NCBI RefSeq assembly: GCF_000814025.1
Contig: NZ_JWLL01000003.1
Location: 724,375 to 788,374 of the forward strand
Length of the DNA: 64,000 nucleotides
DNA from: Tateyamaria sp. ANG-S1
GTDB taxonomy: Bacteria > Pseudomonadota > Alphaproteobacteria > Rhodobacterales > Rhodobacteraceae
Reading direction: 5' to 3'
In this document: positions 25,142 through 36,705 of the stretch, in pieces
Numbering within the stretch: the stretch's first letter is position 1
Layout: every line of letters begins with the position of its first letter
The notes under the pieces: model-generated
What the model was told of the DNA's origin: nothing
Databases searched by the model: none
What the model saw: the letters and a program-made list of their open reading frames with translations, nothing else
Translations under genes and position numbers: made by a program

Positions 25142-26206
25142 TCACGCCGCGTGGTTCAGGATCGCCGCTTCACTTGGGCTCAAATTTCGCCTGGCATAGT
25201 CGCCGTAGGTGTGGGGATCCTGTTCAAGGTTCGGCATCGCAGACACCAGTCGTGCCCGGTCAGCCGCGCTTAACATCGAAAAGGCCGTGTTGGCCGGATG
25301 AAAGCTTTCGGTCTCAACCCCGTTGGCACGCAGCACCTCGTGCTGTGGCAACAGCAGATGCACGTAAGTCGCGGACCGGGCCTTGAGATCAACAGTGATG
25401 GTCGTCCCGTTGACCAAGTCTTTTGCAGCCACAAGTACTTCCGGCGTGTTGAACAGATCCCGGGCCACATCACCCTTCACCAACATCCTGTGTTCTGGCG
25501 AGACCAGCAATTCCTGACCGGGCTGTTCGATGCCCAACGCACCGGTCGCGATGCGAACGGGACGCAGCTGGGGCAATGCGAAAAGCCGCGCCCCCGTCAT
25601 ACGGCGGCTGCCGACCCAAAGGATTTCTTGCGCGCCATTATCCATGGTCTGCACCCGATCCCCTTCGCGCAACGCCTCGATCAAACGTGGACCGTCCGGC
25701 GTGTCAATCAAGGTACCGGGTGTAAAGCAGATAACCCCGCTGGATTGTTCGGGAGTGGCCGCAGTGGCCCCCTGTTCGATTGTGTGATGCACGACCCAAA
25801 GGTCCGTTTTGCGCGGGGGAATGTCATCGACAAACATCAAGAGCGGGGGTGCATCGCCTCCGACGTCGATCACCGTCACCGTATAGCTCTTGGCCCCATC
25901 CGTGACGACGAAGCTGCTGTCGAACATTAACATGTCCGGCTCCGCCACATCAGTTGTGAGCGGTAGATCATGCAGCGCCGCACCGACCAGTCGATGCACC
26001 ATGCGCGCTGCGCGCCTGCGGATGTCTTCTTCCCCGTTTGCCCTGTCCAGGCGCAATACATCTTGTGGACCGTCCACCTGTACGGGATCACCGCGCCAGG
26101 CCCAGGCTGCCCCAACAGCCAAAGACCCAATCGGCGCGGCGTCTAGGCCGTCCACTTCTGTTTGCGTCCAGGAGATGACAAACGTGCCACGAAAGCCCGT
26201 TTTCAT
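25142..26206 (-). CDS. Hint (Hedgehog/intein) domain-containing protein
   Basis: 354 residues if translation starts at ATG 26206 (MKTGFRGTFVISW), the usual N-terminus of this Rhodobacterales family; the open frame continues 39 codons upstream to a TTG. Residues 1-155 form a domain typical of these proteins (TFVISWTQTEVDGL, WAWRGDPVQVDGP). The Hint module begins at CFTPGTLIDTPDG near residue 160 and includes SPEHRMLV and LLLPQHEVLRANGVETESFHP. The leading cysteine is the splicing nucleophile in relatives, but these proteins lack an extein and are thought not to splice. Function is unknown; many are exported surface proteins. Confidence 0.82.
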   Translation of the reverse strand: MKTGFRGTFVISWTQTEVDGLDAAPIGSLAVGAAWAWRGDPVQVDGPQDVLRLDRANGEEDIRRRAARMVHRLVGAALHDLPLTTDVAEPDMLMFDSSFVVTDGAKSYTVTVIDVGGDAPPLLMFVDDIPPRKTDLWVVHHTIEQGATAATPEQSSGVICFTPGTLIDTPDGPRLIEALREGDRVQTMDNGAQEILWVGSRRMTGARLFALPQLRPVRIATGALGIEQPGQELLVSPEHRMLVKGDVARDLFNTPEVLVAAKDLVNGTTITVDLKARSATYVHLLLPQHEVLRANGVETESFHPANTAFSMLSAADRARLVSAMPNLEQDPHTYGDYARRNLSPSEAAILNHAA

Positions 26207-26401
26207 TGCCTGTATGCCTGCCTTGTCTTTTTTTATTGGGATCAGCGTATCAACGTCGATTCCATCTGTGAAGTCCGGAATTGTGTCATATTCCAGCGCC
26301 TTGCGGGGCGTACGTAACGTCAATGAAGCGCTTTGGCCGCACGCAGATCACCGGCATGATCCGCAACATATAGTTCCTGTCGGCAATTGCATGCTCGGAC
26401 A

Positions 26402-27406
26402 TCAGGGCACGTTGAAGTGCGCCCGATACTCGGATGGTGACACACCCATCTGGTCGACAAAGGCCCGGCGCATCCTGTCTTCGTCCCGAAACCCGCAGGA
26501 GGCTGCCACTTGCTTGACTGTTTGCTGCGTTGTTTCGAGCAATCCGCGCGCCTGTTCTGTGCGCATGGCAGCAACGGCCTTGGCGGGTGTCATGCCCATC
26601 GTCTTGGCGTAGACGCGCGCGAAGTTGCGCGGGCTCATCCCCGCGCGTTCGGCCAAGACATCGACGGACAGGTTTTCATGCAAGTTGTCCGCGATCCAAC
26701 TGTGCAAAGCTTCGAACTGCCCCGCCTCATCCTGCAATTGACGACCAAGTGCGGGACTGAACTGCGATTGCCCGCCTGAGCGGACCATCTGCGCCACCAT
26801 TGACCGCGCAACGGTGAAGGCTGCGGCCCGCCCCAAGTCTTCGGCCACAATGGCAAGCGCCATGTCGATCCCCGCCGTGATCCCAGCAGAGGTCCATACC
26901 GCGCCGTCCTTGATGAAGATCGGGTCCATCTCGACCATCACCTCGGGAAACTCTGCGGCTAGCATGGCGCAGTCCTCCCAATGGGTCACCGCTCGGCGGC
27001 CGTTCAACAGCCCGGTCGCCGCCAGAATGAGAGCGCCCGAGCAGACCGAAGCTACACGTTGGGCCCCGCGTGCAAGCTGGCGAACGCGCCCGAGAAGGGC
27101 GGCGTCCCGCATGCCGGGCACTGCGCCGTCCCCGCCAACGACAATCAACGTGTGAATGTCTCGACCGCCCAGCGCGTCAAGCGTCACCGTAGGGATCGAC
27201 AGAACCGTGTTCGTCCCGGTCGCGCCCCCGCGTACCGAGGCAACGATACACTCATATCCGGGGGCGTTCGTAACCGGGTCAGGTGCGTGCGAAAAGACCT
27301 GCAATGGTCCGACAAGATCCAACAATACGATGTCGTCATAGACAACGAACACGACCAATCGCGGTGCTTTTGACCGGCAGGAGGATTTGGCAGCTTTTGA
27401 GGTCAT
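26402..27406 (-). CDS. GlxA-type transcriptional regulator (DJ-1/PfpI domain plus AraC HTH)
   Basis: 334 residues from ATG 27406. The N-terminal half is a DJ-1/PfpI-like amidotransferase fold with the elbow cysteine in ASVCSGALILAATGLL near residue 115. The C-terminal 100 residues are an AraC-type double helix-turn-helix (LSVDVLAERAGMSPRNFARVY, then VAASCGFRDEDRMRRAF). Such regulators sense small nitrogenous or quaternary-amine ligands. It is monocistronic and divergent from the DUF1272 gene; it lies 1 kb before the 28416-36705 operon but on the other strand, so a regulatory link is only possible. Confidence 0.9.
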   Translation of the reverse strand: MTSKAAKSSCRSKAPRLVVFVVYDDIVLLDLVGPLQVFSHAPDPVTNAPGYECIVASVRGGATGTNTVLSIPTVTLDALGGRDIHTLIVVGGDGAVPGMRDAALLGRVRQLARGAQRVASVCSGALILAATGLLNGRRAVTHWEDCAMLAAEFPEVMVEMDPIFIKDGAVWTSAGITAGIDMALAIVAEDLGRAAAFTVARSMVAQMVRSGGQSQFSPALGRQLQDEAGQFEALHSWIADNLHENLSVDVLAERAGMSPRNFARVYAKTMGMTPAKAVAAMRTEQARGLLETTQQTVKQVAASCGFRDEDRMRRAFVDQMGVSPSEYRAHFNVP

Positions 27407-27469: not shown

Positions 27470-27724
27470 ATGCTGATTCTAAAACCCAATTGCGAGTGCT
27501 GCGACACGGATTTGCCACCTGAGGCAGAGGATGCCCGCATCTGCAGCTTCGAATGCACTTTCTGTGCCGATTGCGCTGAAACGCAGCTGCAGAACACGTG
27601 TCCGAATTGCGGCGGTCACTTTGTTCCGCGCCCGATCCGTCCTGCTGCCAAACTGATCAGCCACCCGGCATCGACCGAGCGTTTTACCAAATCCCATATC
27701 CCTTGCGCGCCATCCCCGGCCTGA
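27470..27724 (+). CDS. DUF1272 cysteine-rich zinc-binding protein
   Basis: 84 residues. Nine cysteines lie in the first 47 residues (Cys8, 10, 11, 25, 29, 32, 35, 44 and 47), arranged as in DUF1272: CECC near the start, CSFECTFCADC in the middle and CPNCGG. Two zinc sites are likely. A proline-rich tail follows. Function is unknown. The gene is divergent from the GlxA regulator with 63 bp between starts and lies 14 bases before the phosphatase-like gene. Confidence 0.85.
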   Translation: MLILKPNCECCDTDLPPEAEDARICSFECTFCADCAETQLQNTCPNCGGHFVPRPIRPAAKLISHPASTERFTKSHIPCAPSPA

Positions 27725-27738
27725 CGATGGAGCATCAA

Positions 27739-28218
27739 ATGACAGAGCTGACCCACATCCTGAACTGGCGCCGCATAAATGATCGCCTAACAACCTCCGG
27801 TCAGCCGTCCGAGGCGCAACTGGCCGATATTCGCGAACTGGGCGTAACGCATATCGTCAACCTTGGCCCGCACGACAACAAAGGGGCCTTACAGGATGAG
27901 GCCGGGACGGTCGCGGGTCTGGGGATGCGATACATCCACATCCCCGTGGCGTTCGAAGCCCCTACCGATGACGACTTCACAGCATTCAAAAATGCGATCG
28001 AAGCGCATCCAAACGCGCGCGTGCACATCCACTGCATCTACAACGCGCGGGTCAGCGCCTTTTTCTACCGCTATGCCAAGTCGGGCGCTTGCCTGTCACG
28101 GGAAGAGGCGTTCGCAAACATGGAAAGCATCTGGCGTCCCGGCGACGATTGGGCCGCGTTTATCGACGACACGGACGCCAAGGGAGAGCCAAACAGGTAT
28201 GCGGGCGAAGACTACTAG
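27739..28218 (+). CDS. dual-specificity-phosphatase-fold protein (BLH type)
   Basis: 159 residues from ATG 27739 (ATG 27727 is an alternative). It has the fold landmarks of the beta-lactamase-hydrolase-associated phosphatases: TSGQPSEAQLADIRELGVTHIVNLG near residues 20-42 and the loop HIHCIYNARVSAFFYRY near 95. The loop has four residues between Cys and Arg rather than the five of classical tyrosine phosphatases, which is usual in this subgroup, so activity on phosphotyrosine is doubtful. It is likely co-transcribed with DUF1272. Confidence 0.75.
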   Translation: MTELTHILNWRRINDRLTTSGQPSEAQLADIRELGVTHIVNLGPHDNKGALQDEAGTVAGLGMRYIHIPVAFEAPTDDDFTAFKNAIEAHPNARVHIHCIYNARVSAFFYRYAKSGACLSREEAFANMESIWRPGDDWAAFIDDTDAKGEPNRYAGEDY

Positions 28219-28415: not shown

Positions 28416-29402
28416 ATGTACAAATTTGCGCTGACCGCGGCCCTGGCCGCAGTACCACTGGCCGGGATGGCCGAGGAATTGACACCCGTCACTTTTGGAA
28501 CAAACTGGCTAGCTCAGGCGGAACATGGCGGCTTTTACCAATCTGTGGCCGACGGCACCTATGCCGCATGTGGTCTGGAAGTCACCATCGTGTCGGGCGG
28601 CCCGCAGGTAAACAACCGCGCCCTCCTGCTGGCTGACCGCATCCAATACCACATGGGTGGTGACATGCTGCAGGCCTTCAACGCTGTGGCCGAGGAGATT
28701 CCGGTCGTCGCCGTCGCTGCCATCTTTCAGAAGCACCCGCAGGTCATCGTGGCCCACCCGGATGTGGAAAGCTGGGAGGACCTGAAGGACAAGACCCTGC
28801 TGATCGGTGACAATGGCTATACCAGCTACTACCAGTGGATGATCGCCGCGCATGGCTTCACCGCCGAACAGCGCGAGCCCTACACCTTCAACCCCGCGCC
28901 GTTCATCGCCAACACAGACACGGCCATGCAAGGCTACCTGTCGTCCGAGCCGTATCTGGTGCAGAAAGAGGCCGGTTTCGAGCCGAACGTGTTCCTGATC
29001 GCCGACAATGGCTATTCGTCCTACGCAACGACAATCGAGGTCATGCAATCCACCATCGACGAGAACCCTGAACAGGTCGAATGCTTTGTCGATGCCTCGC
29101 TGACCGGCTGGTACAACTACCTTTATGGCGACAGTGCTGCCGCCGATGCGATGATCATCGAGGCCAATGCGGACATGACCCAGGACAAGATCGACTTTGC
29201 CAAGAACATGATGCGCGACGAGGGCATCGTGGACAGCGGCAAGACGCTTGAGTTGGGCATTGGCGCGATGTCGGATGAGGTGATTGGCGATTTCTACCAG
29301 AAGATGGTGGATGCCGATGTGATCGGTGACGATCTGGACTGGAAGGCCGCCTACACCCTCGACTTCACCAACAAGAAGGTTGGGATGGACATCAAACCCT
29401 GA
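28416..29402 (+). CDS. ABC transporter substrate-binding protein (NMT1/THI5-like)
   Basis: 328 residues with a cleavable signal peptide (MYKFALTAALAAVPLAGMA). The mature protein has the NMT1/THI5-like layout: FGTNWLAQAEHGGFYQSVADG near residue 28, GGPQVNNRALLLADRIQYHMGG near 62 and a hinge segment LKDKTLLIGDNGYTSYYQW. Family members bind thiamine pyrimidine precursors, riboflavin, sulfonates or related aromatic compounds in the periplasm. It is the first gene of the nine-gene operon; the 197-bp leader has AGGGGAGATGA before the start and shows no recognisable TPP or FMN riboswitch. Confidence 0.88.
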   Translation: MYKFALTAALAAVPLAGMAEELTPVTFGTNWLAQAEHGGFYQSVADGTYAACGLEVTIVSGGPQVNNRALLLADRIQYHMGGDMLQAFNAVAEEIPVVAVAAIFQKHPQVIVAHPDVESWEDLKDKTLLIGDNGYTSYYQWMIAAHGFTAEQREPYTFNPAPFIANTDTAMQGYLSSEPYLVQKEAGFEPNVFLIADNGYSSYATTIEVMQSTIDENPEQVECFVDASLTGWYNYLYGDSAAADAMIIEANADMTQDKIDFAKNMMRDEGIVDSGKTLELGIGAMSDEVIGDFYQKMVDADVIGDDLDWKAAYTLDFTNKKVGMDIKP

Positions 29403-29428
29403 TCGCCGTTCTATCATCCTTGCAACAG

Positions 29429-29464
29429 AATGCCGAACGGGGTGTGGTGCGTACGTTCGGCATT
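29429..29464 (+). promoter_or_regulatory. intra-operon hairpin between binding protein and ATPase genes
   Basis: AATGCCGAACG (29429-29439) pairs perfectly with CGTTCGGCATT (29454-29464) across a 14-base loop; TTC follows. It is the only non-overlapping junction in the operon. Such stems protect the upstream message or cause partial termination, giving more binding protein than membrane components. Confidence 0.6.
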
Positions 29465-29485
29465 TTCTACGACAAAGAGGGCCAC

Positions 29486-30268
29486 ATGGCGCAAATCGCT
29501 CCTTTTGCCGAGCGCTATGAGTTGATGCGTGTGAACGCCGTGGACAAGGTGTTTCCCGGCAACGTGCAGGCGTTGCGCGCCATGTCGCTGACCGTGCGCG
29601 AGGGAGATTTCATTTCCCTCCTTGGCCCGTCGGGATGCGGTAAGTCTACGGCGCTGCGCTTGATTGCGGGCTTGTCTGAGCCGACCTCGGGCCGCATCGA
29701 ATGGTCCAAGCCACGTGCGCAGGGGGATCTGGGTGTGGTTTTTCAGGAACCCACGCTGATGCCCTGGGCGACGGTGGCGCAGAATGTGTATCTTCCGTTT
29801 CGGCTGGAAGGGAAGACATACGCTAGCGTTAAGGATGAGATCCTTGAGGCTTTGAAGCTGGTTGGGCTGGACAAGTTCCAGAACGCCTATCCCCGAGAGC
29901 TGTCAGGCGGCATGAAGATGCGGGTGTCCATTGCCCGCGCGATGGTCACGCAGCCCAAGCTGATCCTGATGGACGAACCCTTTGCCGCGTTGGACGAGAT
30001 CACGCGGTTCAAGCTGAACAACGATCTCTTGGACATGCAGGCGCGGATCGGGTGCACTGTGATCTTTGTCACGCACTCGGTCTTTGAGAGCGTGTTCCTG
30101 TCGGATCGCATCGTGGTCATGGCAGCCCGCCCCGGACGGGTGATCGAAGAGTTGCACGTGGACGAGCCCTATCCGCGTGGCGAGATGTTCCGCACCTCTC
30201 CGGAATACGCCGCGCATTGCCGGGCGGCGAGCCAAGCGCTGGAGCAGGCGATGGAGGCGGCGGCATGA
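29486..30268 (+). CDS. ABC transporter ATP-binding protein (nitrate/sulfonate/pyrimidine type)
   Basis: 260 residues from ATG 29486 with AAAGAGG upstream. Walker A is GPSGCGKSTALRL near residue 48, the Q-loop VVFQEPTLMPWATV near 82, the signature LSGGMKMRVSIARAM near 139 and Walker B LILMDEPFAALDEITR near 160. The PTLMPWATV Q-loop is typical of the SsuB/TauB/ThiZ group. It energises the permease encoded by the next gene, with which it overlaps by 4 bases. Confidence 0.92.
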   Translation: MAQIAPFAERYELMRVNAVDKVFPGNVQALRAMSLTVREGDFISLLGPSGCGKSTALRLIAGLSEPTSGRIEWSKPRAQGDLGVVFQEPTLMPWATVAQNVYLPFRLEGKTYASVKDEILEALKLVGLDKFQNAYPRELSGGMKMRVSIARAMVTQPKLILMDEPFAALDEITRFKLNNDLLDMQARIGCTVIFVTHSVFESVFLSDRIVVMAARPGRVIEELHVDEPYPRGEMFRTSPEYAAHCRAASQALEQAMEAAA

Positions 30269-31125
30269 GCGTCACAGACCTGGACCAGCCCGCTGCGCCG
30301 ACGGTCGATGCCGAGGAAGCGCGCCGCGCGCGCAGCCGCCGGATCGAAAAGACAGCGCGCTGGCTGCTGCCGCTACTGGTCATGGCACTGATGATCTGGA
30401 TCTGGGACCGGATTGTCGTCTGGAACGAGATCCCGCACTTTATCTTGCCCAGCCCCGCCCGCGTCTGGGGCAGCCTGACCGGTGATTGGGCGATCCTGTG
30501 GGACAGCGCGCTTTTGACCGGGCGCATCACGTTGATGGCGCTTGCGATTGCCGTTGTGGGCGGTGCTGGACTGGCGATCCTGTTCAACCAGAACAAGATG
30601 GTGGAGCTGTCGCTGTACCCTTACGCCGTGATCCTGCAGGTCACGCCAGTGGTGGCCATTGCGCCACTGATTTTCATCTATGTGGAAAGCAAGACGGTGG
30701 GCATGCTGATGTGTGCCTGGATCGTTGCGTTTTTTCCTGTGCTGAGTTCGACAACGCTGGGCCTGAACTCGGTCGATCATAACCTGCGCGACCTGTTCCG
30801 CATATACGGCGCGACCCGCTGGCAGCGGTTGTGGATGCTGCAATTGCCGTCGGCGCTGCCCTATTTCCTGGGTGGTCTGAAGATCGCGGGAGGGCTGTCA
30901 CTGATCGGGGCTGTCGTGGCCGAGTTGGTCGCGGGAACCGGAGGTGTTGGGACTGGCTTGGCCTTCCGCATTCAGGAGGCGGGGTATCGGCTCAACATCG
31001 CGCGTATGTTTGCGGCCCTCGCCATCGTGGCGGCGATGGGCGTGTTTATCTTTGCGGCCCTGTCGCTTCTGTCGCATATGTTGCTGCGCAAGTGGCACGA
31101 AAGCGCCATCAAACGGGAGACTTGA
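30265..31125 (+). CDS. ABC transporter permease (SsuC/ThiX type)
   Basis: 286 residues from ATG 30265. Six or so membrane helices follow a 35-residue soluble start. The EAA-type loop for contact with the ATPase is in LFRIYGATRWQRLWMLQLPSALPYFLGGLK near residue 175, and IAPLIFIYVESKTVGM precedes it. It moves the substrate delivered by the binding protein across the inner membrane. It ends 1 base into the amidohydrolase start (TGATG), so import and catabolic genes are translationally coupled. Confidence 0.9.
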   Translation: MSVTDLDQPAAPTVDAEEARRARSRRIEKTARWLLPLLVMALMIWIWDRIVVWNEIPHFILPSPARVWGSLTGDWAILWDSALLTGRITLMALAIAVVGGAGLAILFNQNKMVELSLYPYAVILQVTPVVAIAPLIFIYVESKTVGMLMCAWIVAFFPVLSSTTLGLNSVDHNLRDLFRIYGATRWQRLWMLQLPSALPYFLGGLKIAGGLSLIGAVVAELVAGTGGVGTGLAFRIQEAGYRLNIARMFAALAIVAAMGVFIFAALSLLSHMLLRKWHESAIKRET

Positions 31126-32396
31126 TGGACTTTCGCGCACTGCCCAGCGGACACATAACCCTTGCCGATGTTACCGTTCCCGCCTGCCTTTTGGGGCAGG
31201 AGGGCGATCTGATCACAACCGATCTGCATATTGCAGATGGCCAGATCTCCGACACGCCCGGCCAGCGCGTGGATATGGGTCGGGCGATGGTCCTGCCCTG
31301 TTTCACCGACATGCACACCCATCTCGACAAGGGGCATATCTGGCCGCGCGCGTCCAATCCTGACGGGTCGTTCATGGGCGCGTTGACGACCGTGCGCGAA
31401 GACCATCGCAATTGGTCAGCGAATGATTTGCGGGCGCGCATGGAATTTGGAATGGCCTGTGCCTACGCCCATGGCACGCGGGCCGTGCGGACACATCTGG
31501 ACAGCATCCCGCCGCAGCCGCAGATCACTTGGCCTGTCTTTGCCGAATTGCGCGAGGAATGGGCGGGGCGGATCGACCTGCAAGGGGTTTGCTTGATCGG
31601 CTGTGATGGGTTTTCCGAGAACGGTGATTTCAAGGTGACCGCCGATCTGGTGGCCGAATATGGCGGCGTGTTGGGGATGGTGACCTACCCCGTGCCGGAC
31701 CTCCGCGACCGGCTTGAAGGGTTCTTTCGCCTTGCCGCCGCGCGCGGGTTAGACGCGGATTTCCACGTGGACGAGACGATGGATGCGTCCTCGGAAACCC
31801 TGCGCCTGATTGCAGAGGTCGCGCTCGAGATCGGGTTTGAGGGCCGCATAGTCGTCGGCCACTGTTGTTCGCTGTCCACGCAGGACAAGGCCCGAGCGAT
31901 GGATACGCTGGATCTGGTCGCAAAGGCAGGGCTGCACGTTGTGAGCTTGCCCATGTGCAATCTGTATTTGCAGGACCGCACGCCCGCAGGCGCCGCCCGC
32001 ACGCCGCGTGGGCGCGGTGTGACGCTGGTGCATGAAATGAAAGAACGCGGTATCCCTGTCAGCTTCGCCTCGGACAACACGCGCGATCCATTTTATGCCT
32101 ATGGCGATCTGGATATGCTCGAAGTGATGCGCCAAGCGACACGTATCGCGCATCTGGATCATTCCGAAACGGATTGGGTGACGTCGTTCACTACGCAACC
32201 GGCGGCCACTTGCGGCTATGCTATGCAAGAGTTGGCCGTTGACGACCCAGCTGACCTGATCATCTTCAAGGCGCGGGAGTGGACCGAACTCTATGCCCGC
32301 CCGCAATCCGACCGTATCGTCATGCGGAATGGCGCCGCCATCGACCGCACCCTGCCCGACTACGCCACCCTCGATCATTTGTGGGAGACACAATGA
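31125..32396 (+). CDS. cytosine-deaminase-type amidohydrolase
   Basis: 423 residues. The metal-binding HxH is in TDMHTHLDKGH (His64 and His66), with later ligands in DFHVDETMD near 215, VGHCCSLS near 245 and the catalytic aspartate in ASDNTRDPF near 318. This is the CodA/cytosine deaminase branch of the amidohydrolase superfamily, which deaminates or opens N-heterocycles such as cytosine, isocytosine, creatinine or triazines. The real substrate is unknown; the surrounding transporter and oxidases argue for a catabolic role rather than nucleotide salvage. Confidence 0.85.
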   Translation: MDFRALPSGHITLADVTVPACLLGQEGDLITTDLHIADGQISDTPGQRVDMGRAMVLPCFTDMHTHLDKGHIWPRASNPDGSFMGALTTVREDHRNWSANDLRARMEFGMACAYAHGTRAVRTHLDSIPPQPQITWPVFAELREEWAGRIDLQGVCLIGCDGFSENGDFKVTADLVAEYGGVLGMVTYPVPDLRDRLEGFFRLAAARGLDADFHVDETMDASSETLRLIAEVALEIGFEGRIVVGHCCSLSTQDKARAMDTLDLVAKAGLHVVSLPMCNLYLQDRTPAGAARTPRGRGVTLVHEMKERGIPVSFASDNTRDPFYAYGDLDMLEVMRQATRIAHLDHSETDWVTSFTTQPAATCGYAMQELAVDDPADLIIFKAREWTELYARPQSDRIVMRNGAAIDRTLPDYATLDHLWETQ

Positions 32397-33787
32397 ACCT
32401 CGACGCTGCCAAGGCCGACCTCGCCCATCTCGACATCGAAGAGAAAGAGGCCAGTATCCGCGCCTCTTCCCGCGACTTCTTTTGGTATTCACCCGTGTTG
32501 AAGGATCGGTTGGATCACGTGGTGGCCGACTTTGTCGTGCGGCCCCGGAACGAGGCGGAAGTGATCGAGGTGCTGAAGGTCTGCTATCAGCACGATGTGC
32601 CGGTCACGACGCGCGGCGCAGGGACCGGGAATTATGGCCAGGCGATGCCGCTTGAGGGTGGTTGCGTGATGCACCTGCGCTGGATGGACAAGGTGAAGGA
32701 GGTGCATCCGGGCCGCGTGATTGTCGAACCGGGCTGTCTGCTGAAGGATCTGGATGCCGTCTGCAAGGAGCAGTCGGGGCAGGAGATCCGCATGTTCTCA
32801 AGTACGTGGGCCACGGCCACAATCGGCGGCTTTATCGCGGGTGGTTCGGGCGGCGTGGGGTCCTGTACCTGGGGCAGCTTGCGCGATCTGGGCAATATCA
32901 TCCGCCTGCGTGTTGTCACGATGGAGGAAGAACCGCGCATATTGGAGTTCACGGGCGAGGAACTGGCCCGCGTCAGCCACGCCTACGGCACCAATGGCAT
33001 CATCACCGAGATCGAGATGCCCCTCGCGCCCGCCTATGACTGGGTCGAGATGTTTGTGAGTTCCAAGGATTTCATGGCCGCCACCCGCTTTGCGCAGGAT
33101 GTGGCGAATGAGGACGGGATCCTGATCAAGCTCGCCACCGTGTTCGAGGCTCCCGTGGCCAAGGACTATTTCCAGCGTGTGGCCCCGCATGTGGAGGCCG
33201 ACGATCACCTGATCGGGCTGATGGTCGCGCCGCATTCGATGGACGGGTTTCAGACGCTTTTGGGCCGCAGCCCGGAGTTGAACCTGATCTACCGCAGCGA
33301 TGACCACGATTGGGAGCGGTCGCCGGGCACTGTTTTTGAATACGGGTGGAACCACACCACGCTGCGCGCACTGAAGGCCGATCCGTCGATCACCTATCTG
33401 CAGGTGCGCTTTGGCTATCCGAACCAGCTGGAGCTGATCGAAAAGATGCGTGAGGCGCTGTCGCCTGAGGTGCTGCACCACCTTGAGGTGCTGAAAGAGG
33501 GCGGCAAGGTCATGTTTGCGGGTCTGTCACTGGTGAAGTTCACGACCGAGGAGCGGCTGGACGAGATCATCCAGATCCACGAGGATGCGGGTGCGATGGT
33601 CTTCAACCCGCACCGTTACACGCTGGAGGAAGGCGGGCGGCAGACGGTCGATGATCGGCAGTTGAAATTCAAGCGGGAGGCGGACCCAAAGGGGCTGCTC
33701 AACCCGGGCAAGATGATTGCGTGGGACGATCCGGATTTTGATTTTTCCGAGATGTATTCCTATCCGAAGATACAGGCGGCCGAATGA
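32393..33787 (+). CDS. FAD-binding oxidase/dehydrogenase (FAD-binding PF01565 type)
   Basis: 464 residues from ATG 32393 (ATGA overlap with the gene before). The PCMH-type FAD domain is visible as VVRPRNEAEVIEVLKVCYQHDVPVTTRG (split over residues 46-73), followed by GAGTGNYGQA and IGGFIAGGSGGVGSCTWG near 143. The C-terminal part ends with KREADPKGLLNPGKMIAW, the usual end of glycolate/lactate-oxidase relatives. It should oxidise a hydroxyl or amine group of the pathway intermediate; the electron acceptor is not known. Confidence 0.88.
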   Translation: MNLDAAKADLAHLDIEEKEASIRASSRDFFWYSPVLKDRLDHVVADFVVRPRNEAEVIEVLKVCYQHDVPVTTRGAGTGNYGQAMPLEGGCVMHLRWMDKVKEVHPGRVIVEPGCLLKDLDAVCKEQSGQEIRMFSSTWATATIGGFIAGGSGGVGSCTWGSLRDLGNIIRLRVVTMEEEPRILEFTGEELARVSHAYGTNGIITEIEMPLAPAYDWVEMFVSSKDFMAATRFAQDVANEDGILIKLATVFEAPVAKDYFQRVAPHVEADDHLIGLMVAPHSMDGFQTLLGRSPELNLIYRSDDHDWERSPGTVFEYGWNHTTLRALKADPSITYLQVRFGYPNQLELIEKMREALSPEVLHHLEVLKEGGKVMFAGLSLVKFTTEERLDEIIQIHEDAGAMVFNPHRYTLEEGGRQTVDDRQLKFKREADPKGLLNPGKMIAWDDPDFDFSEMYSYPKIQAAE

Positions 33788-34395
33788 CGCCAGCACCCAC
33801 TATCCCATCAGAACCCCAGCGCGCGCTGGTGCTGGCGGCCCACCCGGTGCCCGACAGCTTCAACGCGGCGCTGCACACCCAAGTGGTCGAGACGCTGATG
33901 GGGCGCGGGTGGGACGTGGATGATTGCGATCTCTATGCCGAGGGGTTCGATCCGATCATGTCCGAATCCGACCGGCGCGGGTATCACGATGTGCCGGAGA
34001 ATGTGGAACCGGTGAAAGACTACGTGGACCGCTTGCGCGCGGCGGACGCGCTGATCATGGTCTTTCCGGTGTGGAATTTTGGCTATCCGGCGATGCTCAA
34101 GGGCTTTCTTGACCGGGTGTTTTTGCCGGGCGTGTCTTTCCGGTTGGACGATGGCAAGGTCGTCCCGAACCTGACGCGCATCCGGCGGCTGGCGGCTGTC
34201 ACCACCTATGGCGGCACGCGGCTGAGGGCCATGCTGTGCGGGGATCCGCCGCGCAAATGCGTGACCCGAGCGGTCTGGCATGTGTGCAGGCCGAGGACGA
34301 CCAAATACCTTGCCCTTTACGACATGAACCGGGCAACGGACGCAAAACGCCGCCGCTTCCTCGAACATGTTGGAGAACAGTTAAGGACATTCTGA
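33784..34395 (+). CDS. NAD(P)H-dependent oxidoreductase, flavodoxin-2 fold (first of a pair)
   Basis: 203 residues from ATG 33784 (ATGA overlap). The motif VLAAHPVPDSFNAAL near residue 16 binds the flavin phosphate, and MVFPVWNFGYPAMLKGFLDRVFLPGVSF near 92-119 (two adjacent blocks) is the quinone-reductase-type signature of the NQO1/MdaB/KefF group. It transfers hydride from NAD(P)H to FMN/FAD and then to a quinone, flavin or ring substrate. It ends 1 base into the start of its paralog. Confidence 0.88.
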   Translation: MTPAPTIPSEPQRALVLAAHPVPDSFNAALHTQVVETLMGRGWDVDDCDLYAEGFDPIMSESDRRGYHDVPENVEPVKDYVDRLRAADALIMVFPVWNFGYPAMLKGFLDRVFLPGVSFRLDDGKVVPNLTRIRRLAAVTTYGGTRLRAMLCGDPPRKCVTRAVWHVCRPRTTKYLALYDMNRATDAKRRRFLEHVGEQLRTF

Positions 34396-34991
34396 TGCGT
34401 GCGCTCATCATTTTTTGCCACCCCAAGGAGGACAGTTTCAATGCCGCCGTGCTGGAGACGGTGACAACCCATCTTGACCAAAGAGGCGTCGAATACCGGG
34501 TCCGTGATCTTTACCGGTCGAACTTCATGCCCGTGCTGACAGCGCGCGAACTTGATTGCTATCTGGACGAAAGCTGTAATGCCGAGCCGGTGGCGCAGGA
34601 TGTAACGGATGTGCAATGGGCCGATGCGCTGATCTTTATCTATCCCACATGGTGGTACGGCCTGCCTGCCATGTTGAAAGGGTGGCTGGACCGCGTGCTT
34701 TTGCCCGGCGTCGCCTTCATCATGCCCAAGGGCGAGGGCGACAACATCCGACCCGGACTGACCCACATCAAAAAGCTCGGCGTGTTTACCACCTGCGGGG
34801 CATCTTGGTGGCTGACCACACTGATCGGGGCGCCGGGGCGCAAGATGCTGACCCGCGGTCTGCGCGCCATCTGCGCGAAACGCTGTCGCACCGTCTTTGC
34901 CGCACACTACCTGATGGACAGTTCGACAGACACGTCGCGCGCCAGCTATCTAAGGAAAGTGGCCGAACGGATGGAAAGGCTGACAGCATGA
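34395..34991 (+). CDS. NAD(P)H-dependent oxidoreductase, flavodoxin-2 fold (second of a pair)
   Basis: 198 residues from ATG 34395. It shares with the gene before it the HPKEDSFNAAV start and the block FIYPTWWYGLPAMLKGWLDRVLLPG, so the two are tandem paralogs, but they are well diverged and cannot be a recent duplicate. Two reductases in one operon may form a heterodimer or act on different steps; one may supply reduced flavin. The aromatic-rich YPTWWYG replaces FPVWNFG of its partner in the substrate pocket. Confidence 0.88.
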   Translation: MRALIIFCHPKEDSFNAAVLETVTTHLDQRGVEYRVRDLYRSNFMPVLTARELDCYLDESCNAEPVAQDVTDVQWADALIFIYPTWWYGLPAMLKGWLDRVLLPGVAFIMPKGEGDNIRPGLTHIKKLGVFTTCGASWWLTTLIGAPGRKMLTRGLRAICAKRCRTVFAAHYLMDSSTDTSRASYLRKVAERMERLTA

Positions 34992-35926
34992 TCCCTGTAT
35001 TGGATTGGACCAAGCACAACGAACATCGCTCCGAACCGCAAATACCCAACGCTTTCGAAACAGCGTTCAACACTGCGCTACGCGATACCGGCTTTTTTCT
35101 TCTGAAAAACCCACAGGTCTCACCAGATCTGCGAGCTAAGGTTTTCTCCATGGCGGATCAGTTCTTTGCTCTGCCCGAAGCGGAAAAGGCCAAGCTCTCA
35201 ATTCTGGACACGCCACACTTCCGCGGGTGGGCAAAACCCGGTGATGAGTCGCTAGATGAAAAACGACCCGAGGTAGACACAAAAGAAAGCTTCAACATCG
35301 GGTTCGACCTGCCCGAGAACGATGTACGCGTATTGGCGCAAGAGCCGTTCCGGGGAGTGAACCGCTGGCCTGATATCCCGGGGTTTGCAGAGACCATGCG
35401 AGCCTACTATGACGCCTGTCAGGCGCAGGGTGTCTCGCTCCTGCGCATCGTGGCATGTGGTCTCGGTGCAGGGGTCAACTACTTCGATCCACTCTTCGAC
35501 CAACCGCTATCCGCCCTGAGGCTTCTGCATTATCCGCCGGCGACAGGCGCAGCGAATGAAATCGGCGCCGGTGCTCATACCGACTATGGTGCGTTCACAC
35601 TTTTGATGACAGACGGAGAACCAGGGCTGCAAGTCAAACCCAGGAACGGCGATTGGGTCGACGTGCCGCACATACCCAATGCGTTCATCGTCAATGTCGG
35701 CGACTGCCTGATGCGCTGGACCAACGACATTTATGTCTCGACCCCGCATCGCGTGCTGCCGCCAAAGCGTCAGCGCCGGTCGGTTGCGTTTTTCTGCGAA
35801 GCCAACCCGGGCGCACTGGTCGAAGCCCTGCCTGGCACAGGAGAGGCCAAGTATCCGCCGATCCGCGCGGCCGACTATCTGGCCTCGCGCCTTGAGGCGA
35901 CCTACGCGCCAAAGGAAAACGTATGA
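34988..35926 (+). CDS. isopenicillin-N-synthase-family Fe(II)/2-oxoglutarate dioxygenase
   Basis: 312 residues from ATG 34988 (ATGA overlap). N-terminal DIOX_N-like region: FNTALRDTGFFLLKNP near residue 28. The iron-binding facial triad is His197 and Asp199 (GAHTDYGAFTLLM) with His254 (STPHRVLPP), and the co-substrate arginine is in RRSVAFF near 264. Family members hydroxylate, desaturate or open rings of small molecules. It is the only iron oxygenase of the operon and is a good candidate for the ring-activating step. Confidence 0.88.
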   Translation: MIPVLDWTKHNEHRSEPQIPNAFETAFNTALRDTGFFLLKNPQVSPDLRAKVFSMADQFFALPEAEKAKLSILDTPHFRGWAKPGDESLDEKRPEVDTKESFNIGFDLPENDVRVLAQEPFRGVNRWPDIPGFAETMRAYYDACQAQGVSLLRIVACGLGAGVNYFDPLFDQPLSALRLLHYPPATGAANEIGAGAHTDYGAFTLLMTDGEPGLQVKPRNGDWVDVPHIPNAFIVNVGDCLMRWTNDIYVSTPHRVLPPKRQRRSVAFFCEANPGALVEALPGTGEAKYPPIRAADYLASRLEATYAPKENV

Positions 35927-36705
35927 GCGCACGCGATTGGGCAAACCTGCGCATGCCGGAGTTCGACGACCTAGACCCGGACCGGACCATCGTGCTGCTA
36001 CCCACCGCCGCAATCGAACAGCACGGCCCACACTTGCCGGTCGGCACGGACACGCTGATTGCTGAAGGGATGTTGGACGCAGTCCGCGCGGTGTGTCCCG
36101 ATGACCTTGATCTGTTGATCCTGCCGGTGCAGGCCATTGGCAAGTCAAACGAACATCTCTGGGCGGCGGGCACCTGCACATTGACCGCCGAAACCGCTTT
36201 GCGCGCCTGGACCGAGATTGGCCTGTCGGTGGCCCGCGCGGGTCTGAAAAAGCTCATGATCGTGAATTCCCATGGCGGCAACCTCGACCTGATTTCGATT
36301 CTGAGCCGCGAGTTACGGGTGCAGGCCGGGATGCTGGCGGTCAAAACGCAATGGGGCTCGTTCGGTGCGCCCGACGGGTTGTTCAGCGCACAAGAAGACA
36401 TGTTCGGCATTCATGGCGGGGATCGCGAGACATCGCTCATGCTGACCTTCCGCCCCGAAACGGTAGACATGGGCGCGGCACGCGATTTCCGCTCCAGTGC
36501 CGAGACGGCAACCATCCCACCAATCGGGCCAATTTCCTACGGCTGGATCGCCTCCGATCTGTCAGATAACGGCGTGGTGGGTGAGGCGCATCTCGCAACT
36601 GCAGACAAGGGCCGCGCTCTGGCAGAGCATCAAGCAGCAGGGTGCATCGCATTGGCCAAGCATATGGTAGACGCACCCGTGCTGAGCGCGCCGGCGCATC
36701 GCTGA
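35923..36705 (+). CDS. creatininase-family amidohydrolase
   Basis: 260 residues from ATG 35923 (ATGA overlap). The metal ligands of the family are in place: Glu32, His34 and Asp43 in IEQHGPHLPVGTD, and His117 in VNSHGGN; a further acidic ligand is in GGDRETSLML near 165. Creatininases hydrolyse cyclic or linear amides, e.g. creatinine, the formamide in archaeal flavin synthesis, or mycofactocin peptide. As the last gene of the operon it is a likely ring-opening or amide-cleaving step. Specificity is unknown. Confidence 0.88.
   Translation: MSARDWANLRMPEFDDLDPDRTIVLLPTAAIEQHGPHLPVGTDTLIAEGMLDAVRAVCPDDLDLLILPVQAIGKSNEHLWAAGTCTLTAETALRAWTEIGLSVARAGLKKLMIVNSHGGNLDLISILSRELRVQAGMLAVKTQWGSFGAPDGLFSAQEDMFGIHGGDRETSLMLTFRPETVDMGAARDFRSSAETATIPPIGPISYGWIASDLSDNGVVGEAHLATADKGRALAEHQAAGCIALAKHMVDAPVLSAPAHR

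Follow-up and report, generated by a model that had tools for sequence, protein, structure and literature searches.

A conserved operon of Tateyamaria sp. ANG-S1 with a proposed role in pterin import and catabolism

Which compound does a marine bacterium take up and dismantle with nine tightly packed genes that join a THI5-like importer to a series of redox enzymes and hydrolases? The operon that raises this question lies on the + strand at positions 28416-36705 of a 64,000-nucleotide stretch of Tateyamaria sp. ANG-S1 (contig NZ_JWLL01000003.1, positions 724,375 to 788,374), here called the window, to which all positions refer. We propose that pterins, which form the bicyclic half of folate, and related pteridines are taken up and broken down by its products to supply nitrogen or carbon, a reading to which we assign a probability of roughly 0.7. 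The proposal draws on the kinship of its flavin adenine dinucleotide (FAD) enzyme to an oxygenase deposited under folate catabolism, on the character of its amidohydrolase and on the conservation of the gene set. The genes, with families as predicted from sequence and coordinates that include the stop codons, are:

28416..29402, +, substrate-binding protein (SBP) of the importer, NMT1/THI5-like (PF09084, 72.9 bits; profile matches to 4nmy, 3ix1, THI5 and THI13)
29486..30268, +, ATP-binding cassette (ABC) transporter ATPase (PF00005, 116.9 bits)
30265..31125, +, ABC transporter permease (PF00528, 81.8 bits)
31125..32396, +, amidohydrolase, labelled cytosine deaminase and here proposed as a pterin deaminase (NF005759, 602 bits against a cut-off of 403; residue comparison with CodA)
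32393..33787, +, FAD enzyme, relative of the folate-catabolism flavin oxygenase 6v42 (PDB sequence and structure matches)
33784..34395, +, flavodoxin-fold NAD(P)H oxidoreductase 1, or reductase 1 (PF02525, 99.2 bits)
34395..34991, +, flavodoxin-fold NAD(P)H oxidoreductase 2, or reductase 2 (PF02525, 118.5 bits; its PDB relatives are quinone reductases)
34988..35926, +, Fe(II)/2-oxoglutarate (2OG) oxygenase resembling thymine-7-hydroxylase (T7H), the closest PDB family (family match and residue comparison)
35923..36705, +, creatininase-family metal hydrolase (PF02633, 224.2 bits; below the creatininase, MftE, IolN and ArfB cut-offs; invariant residues)

From the ATPase onward every gene overlaps the next, by 4 bases at five junctions and by 1 base at two. 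The only open junction is that between SBP and ATPase, with a gap of 83 nt that ranges from 0 to 118 nt in relatives. A preliminary description made from the sequence alone had reported nine genes of these families on one strand with 1- or 4-base overlaps from the ATPase on, and both the coordinates and the family matches bear this out.

Conservation of the gene set

How far does the set hold together? Among 244 genomes of the order (own included), 39, own included, carry an ortholog of the amidohydrolase at E <= 1e-120, and we read 20 kb around it in every one of the remaining 38. SBP, ATPase, permease, amidohydrolase, FAD enzyme and reductase 2 stand in identical order and strand in all 38 loci, so that the cohesion which the preliminary description had named as a check on its reading is found in other genomes. 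Reductase 1 is present in 36, the creatininase-family gene in 33 and the oxygenase in 21; the five genomes whose cluster lacks a creatininase-family gene each have a 43-48% identical homolog elsewhere. The association of these genes is not due to chance.

A second set, the best 80 of at least 521 relatives aligned to the FAD enzyme, gave a similar picture, with several loci cut by contig ends; it shares genomes with the 38 loci, and the counts of the two sets are not to be summed. The importer is represented by SBP in 73 loci and by ATPase and permease in 75 each, the enzymes by the amidohydrolase in 77, the reductases in 76 each, the oxygenase in 51 and the creatininase-family hydrolase in 65. 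Where contigs allow, the layout is that of the window. The nearest genome in this set of 80 is Tateyamaria sp. syn59, with a 99% identical FAD enzyme. Within the genus of the window, a search at E <= 1e-90 matched the FAD enzyme in 14 of 20 genomes; the operon is patchy there, since the match is 70-100% identical in nine and only a 37-39% identical paralog in five. Two genomes of the genus without the window's operon (G169 and G230) have creatininase-family, amidohydrolase, FAD and RidA genes together.

RidA is a frequent neighbour. Its gene, found by direct search, adjoins the operon in 58 of the 80 loci and 30 of the 38; its presence beside the enzyme set is a criterion of our own and not a published requirement. 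In the wider phylum, 31 of 398 genomes (own included) have an FAD match at E <= 1e-90, and 20 places other than the window's own were read. Nearby stand homologs of SBP, of the amidohydrolase and of the creatininase-family gene in 18 places each, of RidA in 16, of a flavodoxin-fold reductase in 15 and of the oxygenase in one. The usual core, with exceptions, is an importer, amidohydrolase, FAD enzyme, creatininase-family hydrolase and RidA, to which the Rhodobacterales version adds a second flavodoxin-fold reductase in most loci and a T7H-like dioxygenase in 22 of 39.

Enzymes and binding protein

One pointer to the substrate comes from the FAD enzyme. In the PDB it matches 6v42 best (563 bits, with the next family at 56), at 56% identity over 452 residues. 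A model built with a 45-sequence alignment (mean pLDDT 81.3; 32.3 without the alignment, which was not usable) matches 6v42 with Z 46.9 and root-mean-square deviation 2.1 over 447 aligned residues, the next structural match being D-lactate dehydrogenase at Z 30.4. The fold is that of 6v42/6v43, and the window holds a close relative of this flavin oxygenase, which we take as a mark of a pterin or folate cluster. The title of 6v42 reads 'flavin oxygenase with cofactor bound involved in folate catabolism'. The preliminary description had read the operon as one for importing and degrading an N-heterocycle and had listed pterin as a candidate, and that part of it stands; its statement that the operon matches no named pathway does not, given a 56% identical relative deposited under folate catabolism. 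It had also counted against itself any assignment of orthologous clusters to a characterised pathway, and the 6v42 title goes part of the way towards one.

Nearer still to 6v42 are the FAD orthologs of four loci (L190, L192, L194 and L195), at 73-75% identity. Their clusters run SBP-ATPase-permease-amidohydrolase-FAD-reductase-reductase, with RidA and a creatininase-family gene adjoining. Unlike the window, they have the latter two on the other strand, and no oxygenase occurs within the 20 kb read. At another locus (L197, G255:C1) two FAD paralogs, 51% and 45% identical, lie in opposite orientation, each adjoining a flavodoxin-fold reductase.

The amidohydrolase exceeds the NCBIfam cut-off for PRK07583 'cytosine deaminase' (602 against 403 bits), a label that is probably wrong for this family. 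When 39 orthologs were aligned to E. coli CodA, at 25% identity, the metal and catalytic residues H61, H63, H214, E217, H246 and D313 proved to be kept in all 39, so that the metal ligands and catalytic Glu are shared with CodA, whereas Q156, D314 and W319, which we take to have a role in the active site, are replaced in all 39. Cytosine is for this reason not favoured. A pterin deaminase has been proven in Variovorax sp. F1 (PMC9513972); according to that report, its gene was cloned via a conserved downstream 'endoribonuclease' gene, and the enzyme is 37.0% identical to Arad3529 of Agrobacterium radiobacter. Both are hydrolases of cyclic amidines, as the window's enzyme would be, and the 37% between them is similar to the spread between amidohydrolase groups in related clusters, where L202 (other class) and the Rhizobiales-type L186/L188/L190/L074 are 37-42% identical. 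The likeness extends to gene order: an endoribonuclease-named gene adjoins the pterin deaminase of V. paradoxus, 'Endoribonuclease L-PSP' is the Pfam name of the RidA family, and in Klebsiella and Pantoea the gene that directly follows the amidohydrolase is that for RidA. The Variovorax 'endoribonuclease' is presumably RidA. The cluster kind is partly known, for two of its enzymes are related to proteins linked with the breakdown of folate or pterins.

A paralog of the amidohydrolase, 36% identical and a member of its family, is encoded in the genome of the window on contig C1 at about 211.7-213.4 kb (L226: 8690-10457), beside a divergent RidA and an SBP_bac_5 protein.

The last gene belongs to the creatininase superfamily (PF02633, 224.2 bits against a gathering score of 31.3) and falls below the cut-off of each named member compared: creatininase proper (TIGR04448, 79.1 against 235 bits), MftE (TIGR03964, 102.5 against 172), the ArfB deformylase (NF033501, 22.3 against 180) and IolN. 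ArfB, a creatininase-family enzyme, acts on a formylamino-pyrimidine. The creatinine or hydantoin-like substrate that the preliminary description had entertained loses ground with the creatininase score.

The SBP is a member of the NMT1/THI5-like family (Pfam NMT1, 72.9 bits against a gathering score of 20.5). A profile of 12 SBPs searched against solved (PDB) structures at E <= 1 matched six sequences with 17-45 bits, namely 4nmy, the formylaminopyrimidine binder 3ix1, and THI5 and THI13 twice each; no sulfonate- or nitrate-named protein was among these matches, a negative of little weight. The best family match of the oxygenase is T7H (191 bits; next family 172). Its 22 orthologs were compared with the thymine-contacting residues of Neurospora T7H, given in PMC4787775 as Asn87, Glu122, Arg190, Tyr217, Phe292 and Asn294. 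The Fe and 2OG residues are kept in all 22 together with Arg190, Tyr217 and Phe292, three residues that are not diagnostic of T7H because 9ovh has them too. The window's oxygenase departs from it in having Phe for Asn87, and Asn294 is kept in none of the 22, with E or D instead; Glu122 aligns to Asn in all 22, at a point where the alignment may be off.

A proposed route and its alternatives

How might these parts act together? The parts, their order, their conservation and the kinship to 6v42 can be read from the sequence itself, from which we also infer pterin import and deamination; the steps after deamination are conjecture. SBP, ATPase and permease would take up the pterin, and the amidohydrolase, judged by its family and context, would exchange the 2-amino group for oxygen to give lumazine and ammonia. 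Where present, the T7H-like oxygenase might oxidise a one-carbon side chain at C6 from hydroxymethyl through formyl to carboxyl. T7H carries out this series of oxidations on thymine. The FAD enzyme would then act on lumazine, conceivably by oxygenating its pyrazine ring, while the flavodoxin-fold NAD(P)H enzymes could reduce an oxidised intermediate or supply electrons. The creatininase-family hydrolase might cut the amide of the oxidised ring, and RidA, beside the cluster in most relatives, could hydrolyse the resulting amino-uracil enamine or imine.

Taken as a complete pteridine-ring pathway, the scheme would begin with oxygenation of lumazine, the deaminated pterin, by a flavin enzyme that has the D-lactate-dehydrogenase/VAO fold; the creatininase-family hydrolase would open the ring, RidA would complete the route by acting on an amino-uracil enamine, and the T7H-like oxygenase would be an optional module for the side chain, common in marine Rhodobacterales. 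We offer this full version tentatively and consider it somewhat doubtful. Such a pathway was not described in the literature searched, from which subscription papers were mostly excluded, and the Variovorax authors do not settle by what route the deaminated and hydrolysed products of folate are decomposed further (PMC9513972). Pteridine-ring breakdown after deamination is poorly assigned, and the cluster provides a compact, ordered and testable parts list for it in a harmless marine bacterium. It also suggests folate fragments as a marine nitrogen source. This gene combination, in particular its oxygenase-bearing marine version, was not found in the literature searched, an absence that is weak with most subscription papers outside the search.

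Several observations weigh against a pterin substrate. The folate-catabolism role of 6v42 is its depositor's title, and no paper on it was found in a literature search that left out most subscription papers and whose silence is weak. Orthology of the amidohydrolase to the proven pterin deaminases is indirect; family, context and identity range fit but do not prove it. Both SBP and oxygenase would, by their matches, resemble proteins for monocyclic pyrimidines, and at the Asn87 position of T7H, where the window has Phe, the orthologs have N in 15, Y in five and F in two of 22. RidA was not found beside the window's operon by direct search; the only homolog that the L081 RidA query detected in this genome at E <= 1e-8 lies beside the amidohydrolase paralog on another contig. 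The core is not invariant either, as SBP, amidohydrolase and creatininase-family homologs each occur in 18 of the 20 phylum places and RidA in 16. Clustering of open reading frames (ORFs) in the flanks of the 38 loci and the window revealed no widely conserved folate-cleaving gene and no recognisable conserved companion, RidA ORFs being merged there with unrelated ones. A molybdenum oxidoreductase annotated as PaoC lies near the cluster on plasmids of R. leguminosarum, R. johnstonii and A. tumefaciens, and in none of the 20 phylum places.

Readings based on cytosine, thiamin pyrimidine, flavin or creatinine nevertheless rank below the pterin reading. The monocyclic matches would suit catabolism of an aminopyrimidine such as the thiamin pyrimidine (hydroxymethylpyrimidine, HMP, or formylaminopyrimidine), in which the amidohydrolase would remove the 4-amino group, the oxygenase and FAD enzyme would oxidise the 5-hydroxymethyl group and the creatininase-family enzyme would open the ring. 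Besides the formylaminopyrimidine binder and THI5/THI13 among the SBP matches and the nearness of the oxygenase to T7H, a RutR-like regulator in a related Roseateles cluster agrees with this; the SBP matches and this regulator we also count in favour of a pterin. However, the SBP matches are weak at 17-45 bits and a close relative of the FAD enzyme is titled folate catabolism, so we regard an aminopyrimidine substrate as unlikely. Salvage of cytosine, 5-methylcytosine and thymine, with deamination followed by methyl oxidation through a true T7H, could invoke the same oxygenase, whose orthologs keep Asn87 in 15 of 22 cases, and the 'cytosine deaminase' label above its cut-off. Against it stand the replacement of the CodA residues Q156, D314 and W319 in all 39 orthologs, the Phe at the Asn87 position in the window and the lack of the oxygenase in 17 of 39 loci; no isoorotate decarboxylase came to light, though no search was aimed at it. 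We give this salvage very little credence.

Breakdown of some other N-heterocycle, such as lumichrome or flavin, creatinine or hydantoin, also appears improbable to us. Family labels alone speak for it, those of the THI5-like importer and the creatininase family, whereas the creatininase score of 79.1 against a cut-off of 235 and the nearest solved relative of the FAD enzyme, which points to folate, speak against it.

Related clusters and surroundings

Rhizobium, Roseateles, Klebsiella and Pantoea have related sets, in which RidA and creatininase-family genes are usually present. A second cluster type, seen in Roseateles, Alloyangia, Leisingera, Nitratireductor, Klebsiella and Pantoea, shares SBP, permease, amidohydrolase, FAD enzyme and creatininase-family gene in all six, and ATPase and RidA in most. 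It differs from the window's in its FAD enzyme, which is 38-42% identical to ours (Roseateles, Alloyangia, Klebsiella, Pantoea), in a [2Fe-2S] or PDR-type protein in five of the six, and in its listed genes, which include no oxygenase and never more than one flavodoxin-fold reductase. The PDR-type reductase is found in the Klebsiella and Pantoea clusters, a TetR-type regulator in the other four; the RutR-like character was seen for Roseateles only, at 152 bits and below the RutR cut-off of 368. A plasmid locus of Agrobacterium tumefaciens F2 (L211) has the creatininase-family gene, FAD enzyme, THI5-like importer and 2OG oxygenase without the amidohydrolase, possibly a variant for an already deaminated substrate. 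The Haematobacter cluster has no creatininase-family gene listed.

Scans for control elements in the window gave no promoter (3.2 expected) and five terminator-like sites (7.3 expected), and a 13-bp hairpin between the SBP and ATPase genes (29427-29466, +) was not significant against shuffles (z -0.77). Upstream of the operon, the window encodes a protein with a Hint_2 domain at 25142-26323 (-; 186 bits) and, 1.0 kb from the operon, an AraC-family regulator with a DJ-1/PfpI domain at 26402-27406 (-). This regulator is near the operon in only two of the 80 FAD-aligned loci, both Tateyamaria. Just upstream, on the same strand as the operon, lies a small phosphatase-like protein (27643-28218, +; BLH_phosphatase, 27.4 bits against a cut-off of 26.1).

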